In this document: positions 24,983 to 34,484 of the stretch, piece by piece | Position numbering within the stretch: position 1 is the stretch's first letter | Layout: every line of letters begins with the position of its first letter | Assembly: GCA_018657645.1 (NCBI GenBank) | Contig: JABHWT010000419.1 | Coordinates: 1 to 43,694 of the forward strand | Length of the DNA: 43,694 nt | Source: Halieaceae bacterium | GTDB taxonomy: Bacteria > Pseudomonadota > Gammaproteobacteria > Pseudomonadales > Halieaceae | Reading direction: 5' to 3' | Program-made: the position numbers and the translations under genes | Notes under the pieces: model-generated | Seen by the model: the letters and a program-made list of their open reading frames with translations, nothing else | Databases searched by the model: none | Told to the model about the DNA's origin: nothing

Positions 24983-25273
24983 ATGATAATTTCCTTTGGA
25001 AATCGTGGGACATCCGATCTTTTTCACGGCATTTCTAGCCGGCATGCGAAAAAACTCCCCGGCCAGATTCATAAGCTTGCTCTATATAAGCTCGATCTTC
25101 TAAACGCCGCGCAGGTATTGGAAGATTTGAGGTCCCCACCTGGAAATAGACTTGAGTCGCTGCGGGGTGATTTGAAGGGGCTCCACAGCATTCGAATCAA
25201 CTCGCAATGGCATATTGTGTTCCGTTGGGTGGAGAGCGGCGCGCACGACGTACAAATTGTGGATTACCACTAA
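24983..25273 (+). CDS. higB: HigB-type toxin (RelE superfamily mRNA interferase)
   Basis: 96 residues of the HigB branch of the RelE/ParE fold. These toxins cleave mRNA on the ribosome and are silenced by the downstream antitoxin. Family features are an N-terminal ISFGNRGTSDLF, the HAKKLPGQIHKLALYKLD helix, LRSPPGNRLESLRGDLKG, the core strand SIRINSQWHIVFRW and the C-terminal DVQIVDYH. In HigB homologues basic residues, a Trp and the terminal Tyr-His segment contribute to activity, and all have counterparts here. Toxin-first order with the antitoxin 12 bp downstream is the hallmark of higBA. The predicted operator overlaps the start region. Confidence 0.92.
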   Translation: MIISFGNRGTSDLFHGISSRHAKKLPGQIHKLALYKLDLLNAAQVLEDLRSPPGNRLESLRGDLKGLHSIRINSQWHIVFRWVESGAHDVQIVDYH

Positions 25274-25285
25274 GGAGGCTATCTT

Positions 25286-25576
25286 ATGATCCCAAGTAAC
25301 CGAATAGCTACACACCCCGGAGCCATTTTGCTTAAGGAATTTTTGGAGCCACTTGAGTTGACCCAGAAAGCTCTTGCGACTCACGTTGGCATTTCGGTGC
25401 AACGTGTTAATGAAATTGTCCGTGGGAAGAGAGGTGTAACGCCGGAAACCGCATGGCTTTTATCAGAAGCACTGCAAACTACACCTGAGTTTTGGCTAAA
25501 CCTGCAGTCAATTCACGACTTATCTGCGAATCGCCCAGAACATCATGTTGAGCCACTGCTGGCAGTCGGCACGTAA
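25286..25576 (+). CDS. higA: HigA-type antitoxin (HTH, XRE family)
   Basis: 96 residues of the HigA addiction-module family. The N-terminal HPGAILLKEFLEPL is followed by a helix-turn-helix (about 26-50, LTQKALATHVGISVQRVNEI) and the conserved GKRGVTPETAWLLSEAL and TTPEFWLNLQ. It neutralises HigB and represses the operon. The ribosome binding site AAGGAGG (25273-25279) is very strong and overlaps the toxin's end, fitting the need for excess antitoxin. A GC-rich hairpin terminator follows. Confidence 0.94.
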   Translation: MIPSNRIATHPGAILLKEFLEPLELTQKALATHVGISVQRVNEIVRGKRGVTPETAWLLSEALQTTPEFWLNLQSIHDLSANRPEHHVEPLLAVGT

Positions 25577-28092: not shown

Positions 28093-28275
28093 CCAGAATT
28101 TCATAGGGTGTTCTGCCACTTCCTGCGCGCAACGGGAACCTTCGACAACCTGACCTCAGATGCTCACATAGCCGCCATGGCGATCGAAAATGGCGCTACT
28201 GTGTATTCTGCAGATTATGACTTTCGCCGTTTCACTGGTGTTCGGCATATTAGCCCTCTCGTTGACATCACCTGA
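28093..28275 (+). pseudogene. Relic of a VapC-type PIN-domain toxin (C-terminal piece)
   Basis: In one plus-strand frame ending at TGA 28273-28275 the translation contains RATGTFDNLTSDAHIAAMA, then IENGATVYSADYDFRRFTGVR and HISPL. This is the last ~45 residues of a PIN-domain ribonuclease of the VapC family: the G-N-L-x-x-D-A-H-x-A-A-x-A-x-E-x-G-A block with the third acidic metal ligand, then the D-x-D-F-x-R-F strand with the fourth. The N-terminal half with the first Asp is absent; upstream the frame becomes unrelated and closes at 28039. No vapB antitoxin is nearby. It is a decayed or truncated toxin-antitoxin remnant directly bordering the polysaccharide operon. Confidence 0.75.
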
Positions 28276-28588: not shown

Positions 28589-29902
28589 ATGCCGACTAGC
28601 AAAGAGACGCTGAGAGCGAATATTCTCGACCTTGTCAGGCAGTACCACGATGAGGCCTTCAAACCAGAGCCATTTGAGCCCGGAAGGTCCGAGGTTCCGT
28701 ATTCCGGCAGAGTTTTTGGTCAAGAGGAAATTGTCAACCTGGTCGATTCCAGTCTTGATTTTTGGCTGACTGCCGGGACCTGGGCAGAACGTTTCGAGCG
28801 GTCGTTTGCATCATTTTTCGGCCTGAGGCATGCGCTGCTTACGAATTCTGGTTCATCAGCAAACCTCTTGGCAATTTCTGCATTGACTTCACCGAAGTTG
28901 GGGCACAAGCGGATCAACCCCGGAGATGAGGTCATAACGACGGCCGCCGGGTTTCCCACGACACTCAATCCAATCTTACAAAACGGTCTGACACCGGTAT
29001 TTGTAGATGTGGAAATTCCCGGCTACAACGCCGACCTGTCGCAGTTGGAAAGAGCACTCTCCGACAAAACCAGAGCCGTCTTTTTTGCCCATACCCTGGG
29101 CAATGTTTTCGATGCTCAGAAAGTCAGGGAATTCGCGGATGAACGGGGGCTATGGTTTATAGAAGATTGCTGTGATGCAGTCGGATCACGTCTCCACGGC
29201 AAGCTGGTGGGTACTTTTGGGGATCTTGCGACCACGAGTTTCTACCCGGCGCACCACATCACCATGGGTGAAGGTGGTTGTGTCCTGACAAACAATTCAA
29301 AACTCGGGAAAATTGTCAAGTCCTATCGCGACTGGGGACGAGATTGCTGGTGCAGTCCCGGTGCGAATAACACCTGTAAGAAACGCTTTGACTGGCAACT
29401 GGGAGAAATGCCGCGAGGGTACGATCATAAGTACACATACTCCCATATCGGCTACAACCTCAAAATCACTGACATGCAGGCAGCAATCGGCGTGGCGCAA
29501 CTGGAACGGCTGCCAGGATTCGTCACGGCCAGAAGAAAGAACTTCGATATGCTCAAGGAAGGGCTGAAAGACCTTGAAGACCTGTTGATTCTGCCTGAGC
29601 CCGCGGCTAACTCGGAACCGAGTTGGTTCGGCTTTCCGTTGATGATACGAGAAAAAGCTCCGATATCGCGCGAGAGGCTCATACGCAAGCTGGAGGCCAG
29701 GAAGATAGCAACCCGGGTGCTATTTGGTGGAAATCTCACGCGGCAACCGGCTTATGCCGGCACCCGGTACAGGGTGGCGGTTGACCTTGACCGGTCGGAC
29801 GAAGTCATGAACCGCCTGTTCTGGGTCGGCCTTTACCCAGGCCTCGACAAACAGCGAATCGAATACATGATTGATTCGCTCCACCAGGCAGCCAGGGAAT
29901 AA
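28589..29902 (+). CDS. rfbH: CDP-4-keto-6-deoxy-glucose 3-dehydrase (E1/RfbH/DdhC)
   Basis: A 437-residue PMP- and [2Fe-2S]-dependent enzyme that, with an E3-type reductase, removes the 3-OH of CDP-4-keto-6-deoxy-D-glucose, the committing step to 3,6-dideoxyhexoses. It has the aminotransferase fold, but the PLP-binding Lys is replaced by His222 ([14 protein letters not shown]), the defining change of E1. Cluster ligands are Cys195 (EDCCDA), Cys253, Cys255 and Cys263 ([12 protein letters not shown]), all in place. [16 protein letters not shown] is highly conserved. It is the first gene of a compact five-gene operon, with gtrB starting 6 bp later. The E3 partner and the earlier CDP-glucose genes are missing from the window. 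Confidence 0.95.
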
Positions 29903-29908
29903 TCCGGG

Positions 29909-30847
29909 ATGGAGAGAAAAACACTTAGTGTTCTCACGCCCTGCTACAACGAGTCGGAAAATATCGGGGCACTGTATCGGCAAATCAAGGATGTTTTTGC
30001 CAGCCTGCCTGACTACGACTATGAACATATATTTATTGATAACTGCTCAACTGACGACAGTGTCGAGCAGATTCGCACCCTTGCGGCGACAGACAAGAAT
30101 GTCAGGGCCATCTGCAATGCGCGAAATTTCGGTCACATCAGATCGCCTTTTTACGGCATGCTGCAATGTGGCGGGGCTGCTGTGATCCTGATGGCTTCCG
30201 ATCTTCAGGATCCCCCGGCGCTGATACGTGATTTCGTGAAAAAGTGGGAAGCAGGCGCCAAAATTGTCATCGGGGTAAAGGACAAAAGTGAAGAAAATCC
30301 ACTGATGTTTGCAATCAGAAAGATTTACTACAAATTGGTTCGTATGATATCGGATGTCGACCTGGTGACGAATTTTACCGGTTTTGGTTTGTACGACAGG
30401 GAGTTCATCGCAGTATTGAGAAAACTCGATGTCTCCTACCCCTATTTGCGGGGCCTGGTGGCGGAGTTGGGCGGTCAGTGGTCCGAGGTCAGTTTTGTTC
30501 AGCCCAAAAGGAGGAGGGGGCGCACGAAAAACAACTTTCTTACCCTCTACGATATGGCGATGACCGGGGTCGTCAGCCACTCAAAGTTACCTTTGCGCCT
30601 GGCAGGAATTGTCGGATTCATTTTGGCAACACTGAGCCTTGGCGTGGCAATTTCTTATACCATCTACAAGCTGCTTCATTGGGATGAATTCCAACTCGGA
30701 CAGGCCCCAATCGTCATCGGGTTGTTTTTCTTTGCTGCAGTGCAATTGTTCTTTATCGGCATACTCGGGGAGTACATCGGGGCGATCTTCACCCATGTGA
30801 ACAAGAGGCCCCTGGTTGTCGAGAGAGAGCGAATTAATTTTGACTAA
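29909..30847 (+). CDS. GtrB-like polyprenyl-phosphate glycosyltransferase (GT2)
   Basis: A 312-residue DPM1/GtrB/ArnC-type enzyme that transfers a sugar from its nucleotide carrier to undecaprenyl phosphate on the cytoplasmic face. The GT2 domain (about 5-225) has LTPCYNESENI, FIDNCSTDDS and the catalytic MASDLQDPP. Two C-terminal membrane helices lie near 235-260 and 270-295, as in GtrB. KRRRGRTKNNFLTLYDMA is the typical amphipathic stretch before the membrane. It is followed by an overlapping gtrA-like flippase gene, the standard gtrAB pair in reverse order. Its sugar is probably the product of rfbH and the downstream genes rather than glucose; that is inference. Confidence 0.9.
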   Translation: MERKTLSVLTPCYNESENIGALYRQIKDVFASLPDYDYEHIFIDNCSTDDSVEQIRTLAATDKNVRAICNARNFGHIRSPFYGMLQCGGAAVILMASDLQDPPALIRDFVKKWEAGAKIVIGVKDKSEENPLMFAIRKIYYKLVRMISDVDLVTNFTGFGLYDREFIAVLRKLDVSYPYLRGLVAELGGQWSEVSFVQPKRRRGRTKNNFLTLYDMAMTGVVSHSKLPLRLAGIVGFILATLSLGVAISYTIYKLLHWDEFQLGQAPIVIGLFFFAAVQLFFIGILGEYIGAIFTHVNKRPLVVERERINFD

Positions 30848-31259
30848 CGCAACGGCCTCAGTCGTCCTTTCAAACCAGTTGGTCCGCTTTTTCCTGGTCG
30901 GCGGTGTCAATACGATTTTCGGATATTCAAGTTTTGCCCTTTTTATCTGGCTGGGGCTGCATTACGCACTTGCGGTTCTTCTGGCGACTGTTCTTGGCGT
31001 TGTGTTTAATTTCAGCACAATCGGAAAGCTCGTGTTCAAGCGCTTCAGTCCCTGGCTCATCCACCGATTTGTCGCTGTTTACGCCGTTCTGTATGTTATT
31101 AACGTGGCAGGAATCAAGGCGTTGCTCATCGCAGACCTGAACAGTTACCTGGCCGGGGGAATTATGGTTGTACCCATGGGATTGCTGGGTTTCGGGTTGC
31201 TGAAAAAGCTTGTATTCAAGCCAGCAGGACCGGAACCATCCGGGGCCGGCCCGCAATGA
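30840..31259 (+). CDS. GtrA-like membrane protein (polyprenyl-phosphate-sugar flippase)
   Basis: 139 residues with four membrane helices, the GtrA/DPMS3 fold thought to flip undecaprenyl-phosphate-sugars. Motifs are QLVRFFLVGGVNTIFGY in TM1, LLATVLGVVFNFSTIGKLVFK in TM2 and a basic C-terminus after TM4. No ATG fits. I chose TTG at 30840, which overlaps the gtrB stop by 8 bp with GAGAGAG upstream; another TTG at 30816 (AGAGG upstream) would add 8 residues. The stop overlaps the next start (ATGA at 31256-31259), so translation of the whole operon is coupled. Confidence 0.85.
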   Translation: MTNATASVVLSNQLVRFFLVGGVNTIFGYSSFALFIWLGLHYALAVLLATVLGVVFNFSTIGKLVFKRFSPWLIHRFVAVYAVLYVINVAGIKALLIADLNSYLAGGIMVVPMGLLGFGLLKKLVFKPAGPEPSGAGPQ

Positions 31260-32332
31260 CGCCGTCGTGCATGGCCGGAACCAGGCTCAGTGTTTCTGAC
31301 CTCGAGGAGGTACTGCTTAATTCGCGACATGTTTTTGAGCGACTCAACGGCGCCCGGCTGTTTGTCACGGGGGGCACCGGTTTTTGGGGACGGTGGATGA
31401 TCGAAAGCCTTGCCTACGCCGTGGAAAGACTGGGACTGGACATCAGGATGCTGTTGCTTGCAAGAAATCGGGAGAGTTTTCTGGCTGATAACACAGCGCA
31501 GTCCCGCCCGGCGTGGCTGAGTATTCTGGAGGGCGATGTCCGTAGCTTCAAGTTTCCCGAATTGGATATTACAGACGTCATCCATCTTGCCACTCCCGCT
31601 AGTGCGAGGCTGAACCGGGCTCAACCTGAGCTCATGTTCGACACCATAAAAACTGGAACGCGACGGGTTCTGGATTTTTCAGTGCAGGCGGGCGCCTCGA
31701 GATTTTTGCTGGCAAGCTCGGGTGCAGTCTACGGCAGGCAGCCCCCTGACATGTCACATTTAACTGAGGATTTCCAAGATTACTCTGGCAATGGACCATC
31801 TGTCTCGGCCTATGCGCAGGGAAAAAGATTGGCTGAAGAACTATGCGGTGAATATGCTTCAACACACGACATTGCAGTAAAGATCGCCAGGGGATTTGCC
31901 TTCGTGGGCCCCTACCTGCCTCTGAATGCGCATTATGCAATTGGGAATTTCATCCGAGACGGCCTGCGAGGTGGCCCCATCAGAATTCGTGGCGACGGAA
32001 CACCGGTTCGCTCCTACATGTACGCTTCGGACCTGGTCACCTGGCTGTGGAAAATTCTCCTGGATGGCCGCTCCCAGATACCGTACAACGTTGGGTCCGA
32101 GCAGGCAATCGAGCTTGGATTGCTGGCCGGCCAGGTGGCGGGGGCTTTTCGTGAGGTTCCTGAGGTCGAGATCGCTGTGGCGTCCGAAAAAGATATTGCC
32201 GCAGAGCGTTACGTCCCTTCAACCCGGCGAGCAAGAACCGAACTTGGGCTGAAGATCAGGGTACCGCTGCACGAGGCGATTTCCAGAACCGTAACCTTCA
32301 ACAGGCAGAATTCAACCGATGGTCCATACTGA
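31256..32332 (+). CDS. NAD-dependent sugar epimerase/dehydratase/reductase (extended SDR)
   Basis: A 358-residue nucleotide-sugar-modifying enzyme. The Rossmann motif GGTGFWG is at 39-45 and the catalytic Ser154/155 lies in LASSGAVYG. The YxxxK pair is Tyr186/Lys190 (SAYAQGK), and the substrate-domain signature is GDGTPVRSYMYASDL. The extended-SDR family includes CDP-paratose/tyvelose enzymes, abequose synthase and YerF-type reductases. Between rfbH and a YerE-like gene, reduction or epimerisation of a CDP-3,6-dideoxy-4-keto or branched sugar is the likely job. It overlaps gtrA by 4 bp and the next gene by 14 bp. Confidence 0.88.
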   Translation: MTPSCMAGTRLSVSDLEEVLLNSRHVFERLNGARLFVTGGTGFWGRWMIESLAYAVERLGLDIRMLLLARNRESFLADNTAQSRPAWLSILEGDVRSFKFPELDITDVIHLATPASARLNRAQPELMFDTIKTGTRRVLDFSVQAGASRFLLASSGAVYGRQPPDMSHLTEDFQDYSGNGPSVSAYAQGKRLAEELCGEYASTHDIAVKIARGFAFVGPYLPLNAHYAIGNFIRDGLRGGPIRIRGDGTPVRSYMYASDLVTWLWKILLDGRSQIPYNVGSEQAIELGLLAGQVAGAFREVPEVEIAVASEKDIAAERYVPSTRRARTELGLKIRVPLHEAISRTVTFNRQNSTDGPY

Positions 32333-34484
32333 GAAAATTCGCATAGCAGACTATCTATTCAACATTCTGGCTGAAGAGTACGGCGTCGATACGGTCTTCA
32401 TGATATCCGGTGGTGGCGCCATGTTTCTGAACGAAGCAGTTGGGCAGATGCACGATGCCGGCAAACTGCAGTATGTGTGTAATCATCACGAACAAGCCGG
32501 CGCTATAGCAGCGGAGGGATATTCCCGGGCAAGTAACGGCAGACTCGGGGTCGTGTGCGTTACTACGGGCCCGGGGGGGCTCAACACGTTAACCGGTGTG
32601 CACGGCCAATGGACGGACTCTGTTCCTGTTCTTTATCTATCTGGCCAGGTGAAAAGGACGACCACGCTGGGCCACGCTGAGGTTCGCGGCCTTCGACAGT
32701 TGGGGGATCAGGAGGTGGATATCGTCAGCGTGGTGCGCCCCATAACAAAATATGCCGCCGCGGTGACAGACCCGCTGGAAGCAGGCCAAATGCTGGAACA
32801 GGCGGTGCACGCCGCGCAATCCGATAGACCGGGCCCGGCATGGCTGGACGTACCGATCGATGTGCAGGCGTTTGAAGCTGATGTTGGGCAATTGGAGGAA
32901 TTACGGCTGCGCACCCGGAAGGAGTTGGAATTGCGCAGCAAAAAAAGTGCTTTGGTGTTGGAATCCAGTGCTCGAACAGGCGCCCTTGCAAGCTGGAACA
33001 AACTCACCGAAGCAAAGCGGCCGGTTATTGTAGCGGGCAGAGGTGTCAGGTTGGCGGGTGCCCGGGAAAAATTACTTGAACTTGCCGAAAAGCTTCCCAT
33101 TCCGATATTGGGGACTTTCAATGCGGTGGACCTCATGCCCTCGGATCATTCCTGTTTTGCCGGCAGAATCGGGACCGTCGGCACCCGGTCCGGGAATTTC
33201 GTGCTGCAGAACTCGGATTTGGTTCTCACGCTGGGCACCCGGAATAACATTCGGCAGGTGAGTTATAACTGGCAACTGTTCGCACGCTCCGCCTTTGTGA
33301 TTGGCGTTGATATCGACCCCGCTGAATTGTTGAAACCCACCCTTACCCCGGACCTCCCAATTCATGCCGATGCGGGAGATTTCCTCTCCAATGTGTTGGC
33401 ACTAGCAGAACAGGAAAGCTCGCAACCTGATTTTTCCAACTGGCTTGCCTGGTGCAGGGAAAGAAAGACCAGGTATCCGGTCGTCGGTGACACTGCACGA
33501 GGCCAAGCGGAAATCGACCCCTACCTATTTATGCAAGAATTGACCACCATGCTGAGCGGCGCGGATGTCGTTGCGGCGGGGAACGGTACTGCCTGCACTG
33601 CGCTGCACCAGGCAGCCGTGTCAAAATCTGGGTCCACAATTTTCTCTAATTCAGGCTGCGCAGCAATGGGCTATGATCTTCCTGCTGCAATTGGAGCATG
33701 GTTTGCACTGCATGAGGGTGACAGAGCTACACGTCGAATCTGTTGCCTGGCCGGGGATGGAAGCCTCATGATGAATATACAGGAGCTTGCGACCATAGTC
33801 CGTCATCGCATTCCCCTGAAAATATTTGTACTGAATAATGGCGGCTATTCATCCATCAGACAAACCCAGGAAACGATGTTTGCAGGGCATGCCGTTGCCA
33901 GCGGGCCGTCATCGGGCATCAGCTTCCCGGATTTTCGCAAGGTGGCCGAGGCATTCGGGCTCAGGTCGGCACGCATGGCGGGGACCAGTAGCATTGTGCC
34001 GGTATTGAGCGACGTGCTTAACGATGGCGGTCCCGTGCTTATCGAAGTGGTCCTGGACCCTGATTCACACTTTTCGCCCAAAGTTACAAGTTCGAGAAAC
34101 TCGGCGGGGGCGATCGTGACCAAGCCACTTGAGGACATGTGGCCGCAATTGGAGGCGGCGCTGACCCATATGCGAGTCCATGGCCGGGTGCCCATTTGCG
34201 GCATGATCGCCCACTACAACGACAGTAGAGCAGATATGACTCCCGGACCGCGAAACCTGACGGAAACTATTTACAAACTCATTACTCTCAGGGGTTTTGT
34301 GGTGTCTGAGCATGAACACATGCGCGAGCAGTTTGAGCAGGATATGGCGCAGTGGATTGCCTCGGGCCAGGTTAAGTACCATGAGACTATTGCCCAGGGC
34401 ATTGAAAATGCAGCGGATGCTTTTATCGGCCTGTTTAGTGGTTCCAACACCGGGAAAATGCTGGTTAAACTGGCTGACGAGTGA
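32319..34484 (+). CDS. YerE-like thiamine-diphosphate enzyme with a C-terminal piece of an MDR reductase (chimera)
   Basis: 721 residues. Positions 1 to ~610 form a complete acetolactate-synthase-like ThDP enzyme: the activating Glu58 in HHEQAGAIAAEGY, the middle domain with VIVAGRGVRL, and the ThDP/Mg motif GDGSLMMNIQELATI...LNNGGYSS. In polysaccharide clusters such enzymes (YerE of the yersiniose pathway) add a two-carbon unit from pyruvate to a CDP-3,6-dideoxy-4-keto sugar. After PLEDMWPQ (near 34149, residue 611) the sequence switches to the last ~110 residues of a zinc-free medium-chain reductase (CurA/prostaglandin-reductase type): EAALTHMRVHGRVPICGMI, PGPRNLTETIYKL, GFVVSEH and ENAADAFIGLFSGSNTGK. 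Family length is ~570-600, so the tail is extra. The two family calls are firm; the origin of the fusion is open. Confidence 0.88.
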   Translation: MVHTEKIRIADYLFNILAEEYGVDTVFMISGGGAMFLNEAVGQMHDAGKLQYVCNHHEQAGAIAAEGYSRASNGRLGVVCVTTGPGGLNTLTGVHGQWTDSVPVLYLSGQVKRTTTLGHAEVRGLRQLGDQEVDIVSVVRPITKYAAAVTDPLEAGQMLEQAVHAAQSDRPGPAWLDVPIDVQAFEADVGQLEELRLRTRKELELRSKKSALVLESSARTGALASWNKLTEAKRPVIVAGRGVRLAGAREKLLELAEKLPIPILGTFNAVDLMPSDHSCFAGRIGTVGTRSGNFVLQNSDLVLTLGTRNNIRQVSYNWQLFARSAFVIGVDIDPAELLKPTLTPDLPIHADAGDFLSNVLALAEQESSQPDFSNWLAWCRERKTRYPVVGDTARGQAEIDPYLFMQELTTMLSGADVVAAGNGTACTALHQAAVSKSGSTIFSNSGCAAMGYDLPAAIGAWFALHEGDRATRRICCLAGDGSLMMNIQELATIVRHRIPLKIFVLNNGGYSSIRQTQETMFAGHAVASGPSSGISFPDFRKVAEAFGLRSARMAGTSSIVPVLSDVLNDGGPVLIEVVLDPDSHFSPKVTSSRNSAGAIVTKPLEDMWPQLEAALTHMRVHGRVPICGMIAHYNDSRADMTPGPRNLTETIYKLITLRGFVVSEHEHMREQFEQDMAQWIASGQVKYHETIAQGIENAADAFIGLFSGSNTGKMLVKLADE

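Follow-up and report, generated by a model that had tools for sequence, protein, structure and literature searches.

A GtrB-like glycosyltransferase subfamily associated with CDP-sugar and branched-sugar genes, and its doubtful copy in a Halieaceae draft genome

Does a five-gene operon in a Halieaceae bacterium belong to a pathway that builds a C-branched sugar on cytidine diphosphate (CDP) and then passes it to a lipid carrier? The operon lies at 28589-34484 on the + strand of a stretch of 43,694 nucleotides (contig JABHWT010000419.1 of assembly GCA_018657645.1), here called the window. The window is the whole of contig C448; the draft genome it belongs to totals 5.4 Mb in 491 contigs and is 89% complete. 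The operon encodes, in order, an E1 of the RfbH/DdhC type, a CDP-4-keto-6-deoxyglucose 3-dehydrase (28589..29902); a GtrB-type polyisoprenyl-phosphate glycosyltransferase (29909..30847); a GtrA-type small membrane protein and putative flippase (30816..31259); an extended short-chain dehydrogenase/reductase (SDR) of the NAD-dependent epimerase/dehydratase family, putatively a branched-sugar ketoreductase (31256..32332); and a thiamine diphosphate (ThDP)-dependent, YerE/JanthE-like C-branching lyase (32319..34484). All five frames are open in the open reading frame list. The E1 and GtrB genes are separated by 6 bases and the later joints overlap, by 32 bases (GtrB/GtrA), 4 bases (GtrA/SDR) and 14 bases (SDR/ThDP enzyme); the TTG start of the GtrA frame is a mechanical choice. 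The five-gene operon is real. Families were assigned with Pfam and NCBIfam profiles and by sequence matches in the PDB. Together with the key residues, these assignments confirmed the gene content given in the original prediction, namely an E1 with His222 and four cysteines, gtrB, gtrA, an extended SDR and a YerE-like ThDP enzyme in an overlapping operon.

We somewhat favor the reading that these five genes are the surviving part of a recurring pathway in which a C-branched sugar would be built on CDP and then loaded on a lipid carrier. One line of evidence for it comes from GtrB. The window protein matches Synechocystis GtrB (5ekp) from end to end (151.6 bits, residues 6-304 of 312) and has the GT-A domain PF00535. 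When it was searched against 398 Pseudomonadota genomes, 21 other genomes contained a match at 40-58% identity, and 154 contained a match at E ≤ 1e-30 with an identity of 35% or less; nothing was listed between 35% and 40%. A CDP-glucose dehydratase scored above the cut-off in 20 of the 21 genomes with the close subfamily, compared to 37 of the 154 genomes with an ordinary GtrB and 74 of all 376 others. Fisher tests of this link gave p values of 2e-10 (against the 154) and 1e-12 (against the 376).

The same link was seen in the gene neighborhoods. Within 20 kb of the subfamily GtrB, the dehydratase gene ddhB was present at 11 of 21 loci, a transketolase pair at 6, a YerE-like ThDP enzyme (at least 290 bits) at 5 and E1 (at least 230 bits) at 5. 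At least one of ddhA, ddhB, E1, ThDP enzyme or transketolase pair was found near 15 of the 21. The number rises to 16 if L153 is counted, which has a ThDP enzyme at 285 bits, a piece of E1 and a ddhB 0.85 kb beyond the stretch. Only 3 of 39 background GtrB stretches were positive, two with ddhA and ddhB (L173 and L174) and one with a transketolase-like gene. Among the neighbors of the subfamily GtrB are two unrelated kinds of C-branching ThDP enzyme, the YerE-like enzymes and the transketolase pair; the latter may be a second type of ThDP enzyme that branches CDP-sugars. The best plasmid GtrB among 423 records (42.3% identity; the next had 35.5%) is encoded by Methylovirgula pHY1, and there (L121, 14570-21945) a transketolase pair lies between gtrA-gtrB and rfbH, rfbG and rfbF. 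E1 was not found within the stretches of four transketolase clusters (L152, L165, L169 and L171), even at E 1e-3, suggesting that 3-deoxygenation is optional. The "dideoxy" in the original prediction thus does not hold as a common feature.

Next, the donor site was compared. Asp43 of GtrB is reported to bond N3 of uridine diphosphate (UDP), and its counterpart in PfDPMS, Asp39, to read guanine (Gandini et al., PMC5526996). By alignment to 5ekp, with the construct numbering minus 23, Asp43 corresponds to Asn45 in the window. All 44 rows of the subfamily have Asn at this position, and 38 of the 42 background rows have Asp; in a larger set the counts are 43 of 43 for Asn in the subfamily and 95 of 100 for Asp in the background. 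An exchange of Asp for Asn suits cytosine, since its N3 accepts a hydrogen bond whereas that of uracil donates one. We tentatively propose, with confidence just short of even, that this GtrB-like clade, which extends over several phyla, is a CDP-sugar-specific polyprenyl-phosphate glycosyltransferase whose rebuilt site would take C-branched 6-deoxy or 3,6-dideoxy sugars made by the two unrelated types of ThDP enzyme.

Several observations weigh against this proposal or against the linkage behind it. The subfamily never has Asp at the DxD position Asp94 (0 of 44, with Ala in the window), compared to 41 of 42 background rows. At the Asp157 position the subfamily has Gly in 34 of its 44 rows, the window among them, with Asp in 7 others and Glu in 3; all 42 background rows have Asp there. 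The window GtrB consequently fails a test for the functional residues of the Synechocystis enzyme, keeping D96 and R200 but having Lys for R122, Ala for D94 and Gly for D157. Asn45 itself is no proof of CDP use because DN-x-S is also found in ordinary GT2 proteins (L024 and L056), and in the GtrB tree Asn45 arose once in the subfamily clade and at least once elsewhere. One subfamily genome (G156) is without a CDP-glucose dehydratase. The Fisher values are inflated because the 21 genomes come from 10 families. Five of the 21 loci (L156, L157, L158, L160 and L162) have neither ddhA nor ddhB, E1 (at 230 bits), ThDP enzyme or transketolase pair within the stretch. Lastly, ThDP and GtrB distances were correlated in a Mantel test (r 0.84, 24 loci), but co-evolution of the two was dropped as an argument after thinning to 5 loci reduced r to 0.41 (p 0.26).

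The lost acidic residues leave room for another role of the GtrB relative. It might not be a working undecaprenyl-phosphate glycosyltransferase at all and might instead use another acceptor or perform other chemistry in branched-sugar metabolism. Asp157 is the putative catalytic acid of GtrB, and mutation of Asp94 or Asp157 abolished activity (PMC4728340), which is what this alternative has in its favor. On the other hand, 43-44 of the 44 rows retain the equivalents of Asp96, Gln98, Tyr140 and Arg200, the Arg122 position is Lys or Arg in all, and GtrA adjoins the GtrB relative in the window and in several relatives. The Lys132 position is mostly Met in the subfamily, and Ala136 is replaced in 43 of 44 rows by an Arg that could possibly compensate for the lost residues. 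Among the residues of PfDPMS affected by the C2 hydroxyl is Asp89, the counterpart of Asp94 by motif alignment (Gandini et al., PMC5526996), so that the loss of Asp94 may fit another sugar. We regard a non-transferase role as improbable. The undecaprenyl-carrier loading of the original prediction is strengthened by the comparisons: the subfamily accompanies CDP-glucose dehydratase and C-branching ThDP enzymes across phyla, as would be expected of such a carrier.

A GtrB tree, made by a quick method with no bootstrap, placed the 44 rows in one group (SH-aLRT, the Shimodaira-Hasegawa-like approximate likelihood ratio test, 99), with L173 and L174 as its sister (98) and the window paired with L019 (97). 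The two sister rows keep both Asp94 and Asp157. Since they are only 33-34% identical, carry the Asn and lie beside ddhA and ddhB, they were considered as a case of independent convergence on Asn45. The tree did not support this: with L173 and L174 as sister to the main clade, a single origin of Asn45 is indicated, and the test for ddhA/ddhB near ordinary-range GtrB (seen for 2 of the 5 rows with Asn and for none of the 95 with Asp, p 0.002) is not independent evidence. At the genome level, the dehydratase was found for 3 of 4 Asn genomes and 20 of 73 others (p 0.08). Asn at the base position was also observed in three further ordinary-range GtrB proteins at 32-34% identity (L175 9575, L179 10453 and L263 10965), and L175 and L179 form a separate pair in the tree.

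Another possible explanation is that the sugar loaded by GtrB and GtrA is an ordinary one, glucose for instance, the two genes just happening to lie in a polysaccharide cluster, and that a cytosolic glycosyltransferase takes the branched sugar from CDP, as the original prediction has it for yersiniose. Kelly et al. 2024 (PMC11127046) describe GtrB-type enzymes as using UDP-sugars, with CDP not mentioned in the available part of the article; moreover, polysaccharide genes cluster in general, and the dehydratase occurs in 37 of the 154 ordinary-GtrB genomes too. However, the link is confined to one GtrB subfamily, spans phyla and goes with a rebuilt donor site. The host genome also has a separate trio on contig C386 (L205, 4714-7768), consisting of a large membrane protein of 534 amino acids that is GT-C-like by position, a GtrB and a GtrA-like frame. 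This trio is ordinary-looking; its GtrB is 31% identical to that of the window and has Asp at the base position. We therefore consider the ordinary-sugar explanation unlikely, though somewhat less so than a GtrB with no transferase role.

Loading of the branched sugar itself would call for a GT-C enzyme to use it. No GT-C was recognized by eye among the window frames, where no systematic scan was made. Among relatives, 17 of 36 GtrB loci had, within four genes, a frame of at least 400 amino acids with at least 6 transmembrane stretches predicted from hydropathy only; one of these is PMT_2. A family of proteins with eight transmembrane stretches, 35-39% identical, was observed beside the subfamily GtrB in a verrucomicrobial locus (L027, 15483-17282 and 10433-12112) and a gammaproteobacterial locus (L152, 8436-10208). 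It had no Pfam match and is a candidate GT-C. Structure models of the two L027 proteins had a mean pLDDT (predicted local distance difference test) of 38 and were useless.

The identity of the ThDP enzyme matters for the branching step. It has the TPP_enzyme N, M and C domains (Pfam PF02775/PF00205/PF02776), a GDG motif at residue 479 and HHEQ at residue 56, whose Glu we take to be the catalytic one. The closest PDB entry is 8rph (353 bits, residues 2-613), identified as JanthE of Janthinobacterium in PMC12188165, and the next is an acetolactate synthase (222 bits). JanthE served as the characterized YerE-like enzyme in this comparison. A 65-row tree joined the window enzyme to L019 (Bacteroidales, 100/98) and to L018 (100/95) and kept it away from the nine acetolactate synthases. 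That the gene is instead an acetolactate synthase of amino acid metabolism, accidentally linked to sugar genes, is very improbable. Acetolactate synthases are the top NCBIfam matches, but at 335.9 bits they fall below the cut-off of 538.35, and a synthase-like gene of its own is present on contig C121 of the host genome (33%, 228.8 bits). This candidate was rejected on PDB score, tree and neighbors. A grouping with YerE/JanthE-like enzymes is supported by these comparisons, in agreement with the original prediction.

Does the whole gene set recur around such enzymes? The best 80 loci for the window ThDP protein fall into two sets. The first has 49 loci of numerous phyla, with identities of 36-52%; the second has 31 acetolactate synthases, with identities of about 29-33%. 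In the tree, L058 of the first set falls on the synthase side. Around the 49 YerE-like loci, E1 was found at 29, ddhA at 25, ddhB at 18, GtrB (45-63% identity) at 20, an HMGL-like aldolase at 25 and a NeuB-like protein at 11. These counts are lower bounds, as many loci are short. At the thresholds used, none of the 31 synthase loci had E1, ddhA, ddhB, GtrB, aldolase or NeuB-like genes. The candidate system of the original prediction is a recurrent one and not peculiar to the window, where the copy looks incomplete. The nearest relative, L019, has E1, ddhA, ddhB, the ThDP enzyme, an HpcH/HpaI-type aldolase and an HAD phosphatase. Its GtrB, at 63% identity, is the closest to that of the window, and both the GtrB and the ThDP trees pair L019 with the window.

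The neighbors also bear on the donor of the branch. A C2 unit from pyruvate is probably not the branch in most relatives, where aldolases or NeuB-like enzymes adjoin the ThDP gene. ErwE favors hydroxylated keto acids of more than 4 carbons (PMC12247030), making an aldolase-supplied donor plausible. NeuB-family proteins were seen beside YerE-like genes at L024 (9937-11064, with homologues) and L056 (6447-7958), and one has a cupin tail; they are possibly makers of a keto-acid donor.

E1 matches NF011936 RfbH at 713.6 bits (cut-off 423) over residues 3-435 of 437, and its best solved match is 3bcx (585 bits). It has His222 in place of the pyridoxal phosphate lysine, and Cys195, Cys253, Cys255 and Cys263 in the pattern C-x57-C-x-C-x7-C, presumably the spacing of iron-sulfur ligands. 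GtrA matches PF04138 (40.3 bits, cut-off 26.1). The SDR matches PF01370 (114 bits) and is 46-48% identical to an SDR encoded next to the ThDP enzyme at loci of Acidobacteria and Verrucomicrobia (L024, L025, L027, L028 and L055).

What the sequences show is which genes are present, the families they belong to, their linkage across genomes and the changed active site. From this we propose the following scheme, in which the chemistry, CDP specificity, carrier and destination are all predicted. DdhA and DdhB would make CDP-4-keto-6-deoxyglucose, and E1, where present, would remove the 3-hydroxyl with a reductase. The YerE-like enzyme would add an acyl unit to the C4 ketone, probably a hydroxylated keto-acid fragment from the aldolase or NeuB-like enzyme, and the SDR would reduce the branched product. 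Next, the subfamily GtrB would take the sugar off CDP and load it onto undecaprenyl phosphate. The lipid-linked sugar would be flipped by GtrA and used outside by a GT-C enzyme.

Can this pathway operate in the Halieaceae bacterium itself? The ThDP gene, which had been predicted to end near 34150, runs on in frame to 34484. From about residue 605 the frame continues as the C-terminal piece of a zinc-type dehydrogenase (34143..34466, + strand; PF13602, residues 609-716), which scored 27.1 bits on the whole frame (cut-off 27) and 29.6 bits as a piece alone. Since the relative in L019 ends ...KPLEDLYPFLPRDEFEGNMIVPLVNEC*, the window enzyme is without only its last ~15-20 residues. In the host genome, the profile search found no complete ddhA or ddhB, just two pieces on contig C163 that were both below cut-off: cytidylyltransferase (ddhA) model positions 144-255 and dehydratase (ddhB) model positions 1-134. 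In the stretch 992-2629 of C163 (L009), the ddhA-ddhB piece of ~0.75 kb has on one side a cut FKBP gene, whose match begins only at position 36 of 94, and on the other a weak match to the C-terminal end of DUF1800 (15.9 bits, below cut-off). The C163 join looks like the same type of mosaic as the one in the window.

The partner enzymes were not found either. The 89%-complete genome gave 10 Fer2 matches in open frames of 109, 119, 162, 172, 173, 183, 220, 560, 709 and 964 amino acids, none of which resembles the ~330 amino acid Fer2-FAD-NAD reductase expected of E3; other reductants were not searched. The original prediction had relied on a CDP-glucose dehydratase and an E3 elsewhere in the genome, and it is halfway to refutation by its own terms, since ddhA and ddhB were present only as cut pieces and no Fer2-type reductase of E3 size was found. 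No NeuB-like or HpcH-like donor makers were found in the host genome in a search without a positive control. The missing E3, complete ddhA and ddhB, donor-making enzyme and GT-C also count against the pathway reading as applied to this organism.

The chances are about even that the window copy is a decayed cluster remnant, or pieces joined by the assembly, and that no pathway operates in this organism. This possibility is compatible with the CDP-linked pathway as applied to relatives. The fused dehydrogenase tail, the half genes lying together on C163 and the fragmented assembly all point to it. In addition, no comparable ThDP gene was found in 57 related genomes (2 from the same genus, 34 from the family and 21 from the order), the best matches among the rows listed reaching at most 239 bits and 36% identity. 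Against it, the five frames are open and closely spaced with key residues present, and the missing parts may lie in gaps of the incomplete genome. None of 18 relatives had an orthologue of this tail at more than 45% identity, so the window join could not be dated, and the GC profile of the window had no clear edge at the left or right joins. With ddhA and ddhB only as cut pieces and no E3 or GT-C found, the window copy may be either the remains of a lost cluster or an assembly error, and the present data do not separate the two. The pathway is incomplete in this genome as assembled and the function of the window copy is doubtful. Just left of the operon there is a weak trace of a PIN-domain C-terminus (28147..28233, + strand; PF01850, 21.2 bits, below the cut-off of 23.6), and further left a HigB-like toxin and helix-turn-helix antitoxin pair was observed (24983-25576).

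Branched sugars from YerE-like enzymes are known in a handful of O-antigens and glycolipids. If the subfamily GtrB does load sugars from CDP onto undecaprenyl phosphate, three-component glycosylation would extend to a new nucleotide and sugar class, and a whole class of lipid-linked branched sugars on surface glycans would await discovery. The gene pair would predict carriers of such sugars, among them Lachnospiraceae of the rumen and gut and Acidobacteria and Verrucomicrobia of soil. The idea that a single residue sets which nucleotide a polyprenyl-phosphate transferase uses would become directly testable. Among the papers listed in searches of an open-licence library, no link was found between GtrB or undecaprenyl phosphate and dideoxyhexose, branched-chain sugar, RfbH or YerE-like clusters. 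The available part of a YerE review (PMC12247030), which cites an in silico study of >200 YerE-like clusters, has no mention of undecaprenyl or glycosyltransferases.

Judged by its genes, the subfamily system would be a previously undescribed variant of three-component Gtr glycosylation (GtrA/GtrB/GT-C). It resembles the known systems in having GtrB and GtrA genes side by side, with an expected undecaprenyl-phosphate sugar, its flipping and its use by a GT-C. It differs in that known donors are UDP-sugars (PMC11127046), whereas here the neighbors point to CDP-branched sugars, the donor site is altered and no GT-C was recognized in the window. The yersiniose-type pathway, in which YerE acts on CDP-3,6-dideoxy-4-keto-D-glucose (PMC12247030), shares the RfbH E1, the YerE-like ThDP enzyme and, in relatives, genes of the ddhA/ddhB type. 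In contrast to it, the GtrB/GtrA pair is added here, and the aldolase or NeuB-like donor makers of relatives are closer to ErwE. JanthE is the closest solved relative of the window ThDP enzyme, and its ThDP motif is CDG (PMC12188165) as opposed to GDG at residue 479. ArnC, which makes Und-P-Ara4FN, is likewise a polyprenyl-phosphate transferase for a modified sugar, and the window GtrB scores 87 bits to PDB entry 9hwj. The available part of the ArnC article (PMC12843557) says nothing on nucleotide contacts. In alignments, ArnC keeps Asp at the base position, unlike the subfamily GtrB, and its sugar and neighbors differ.

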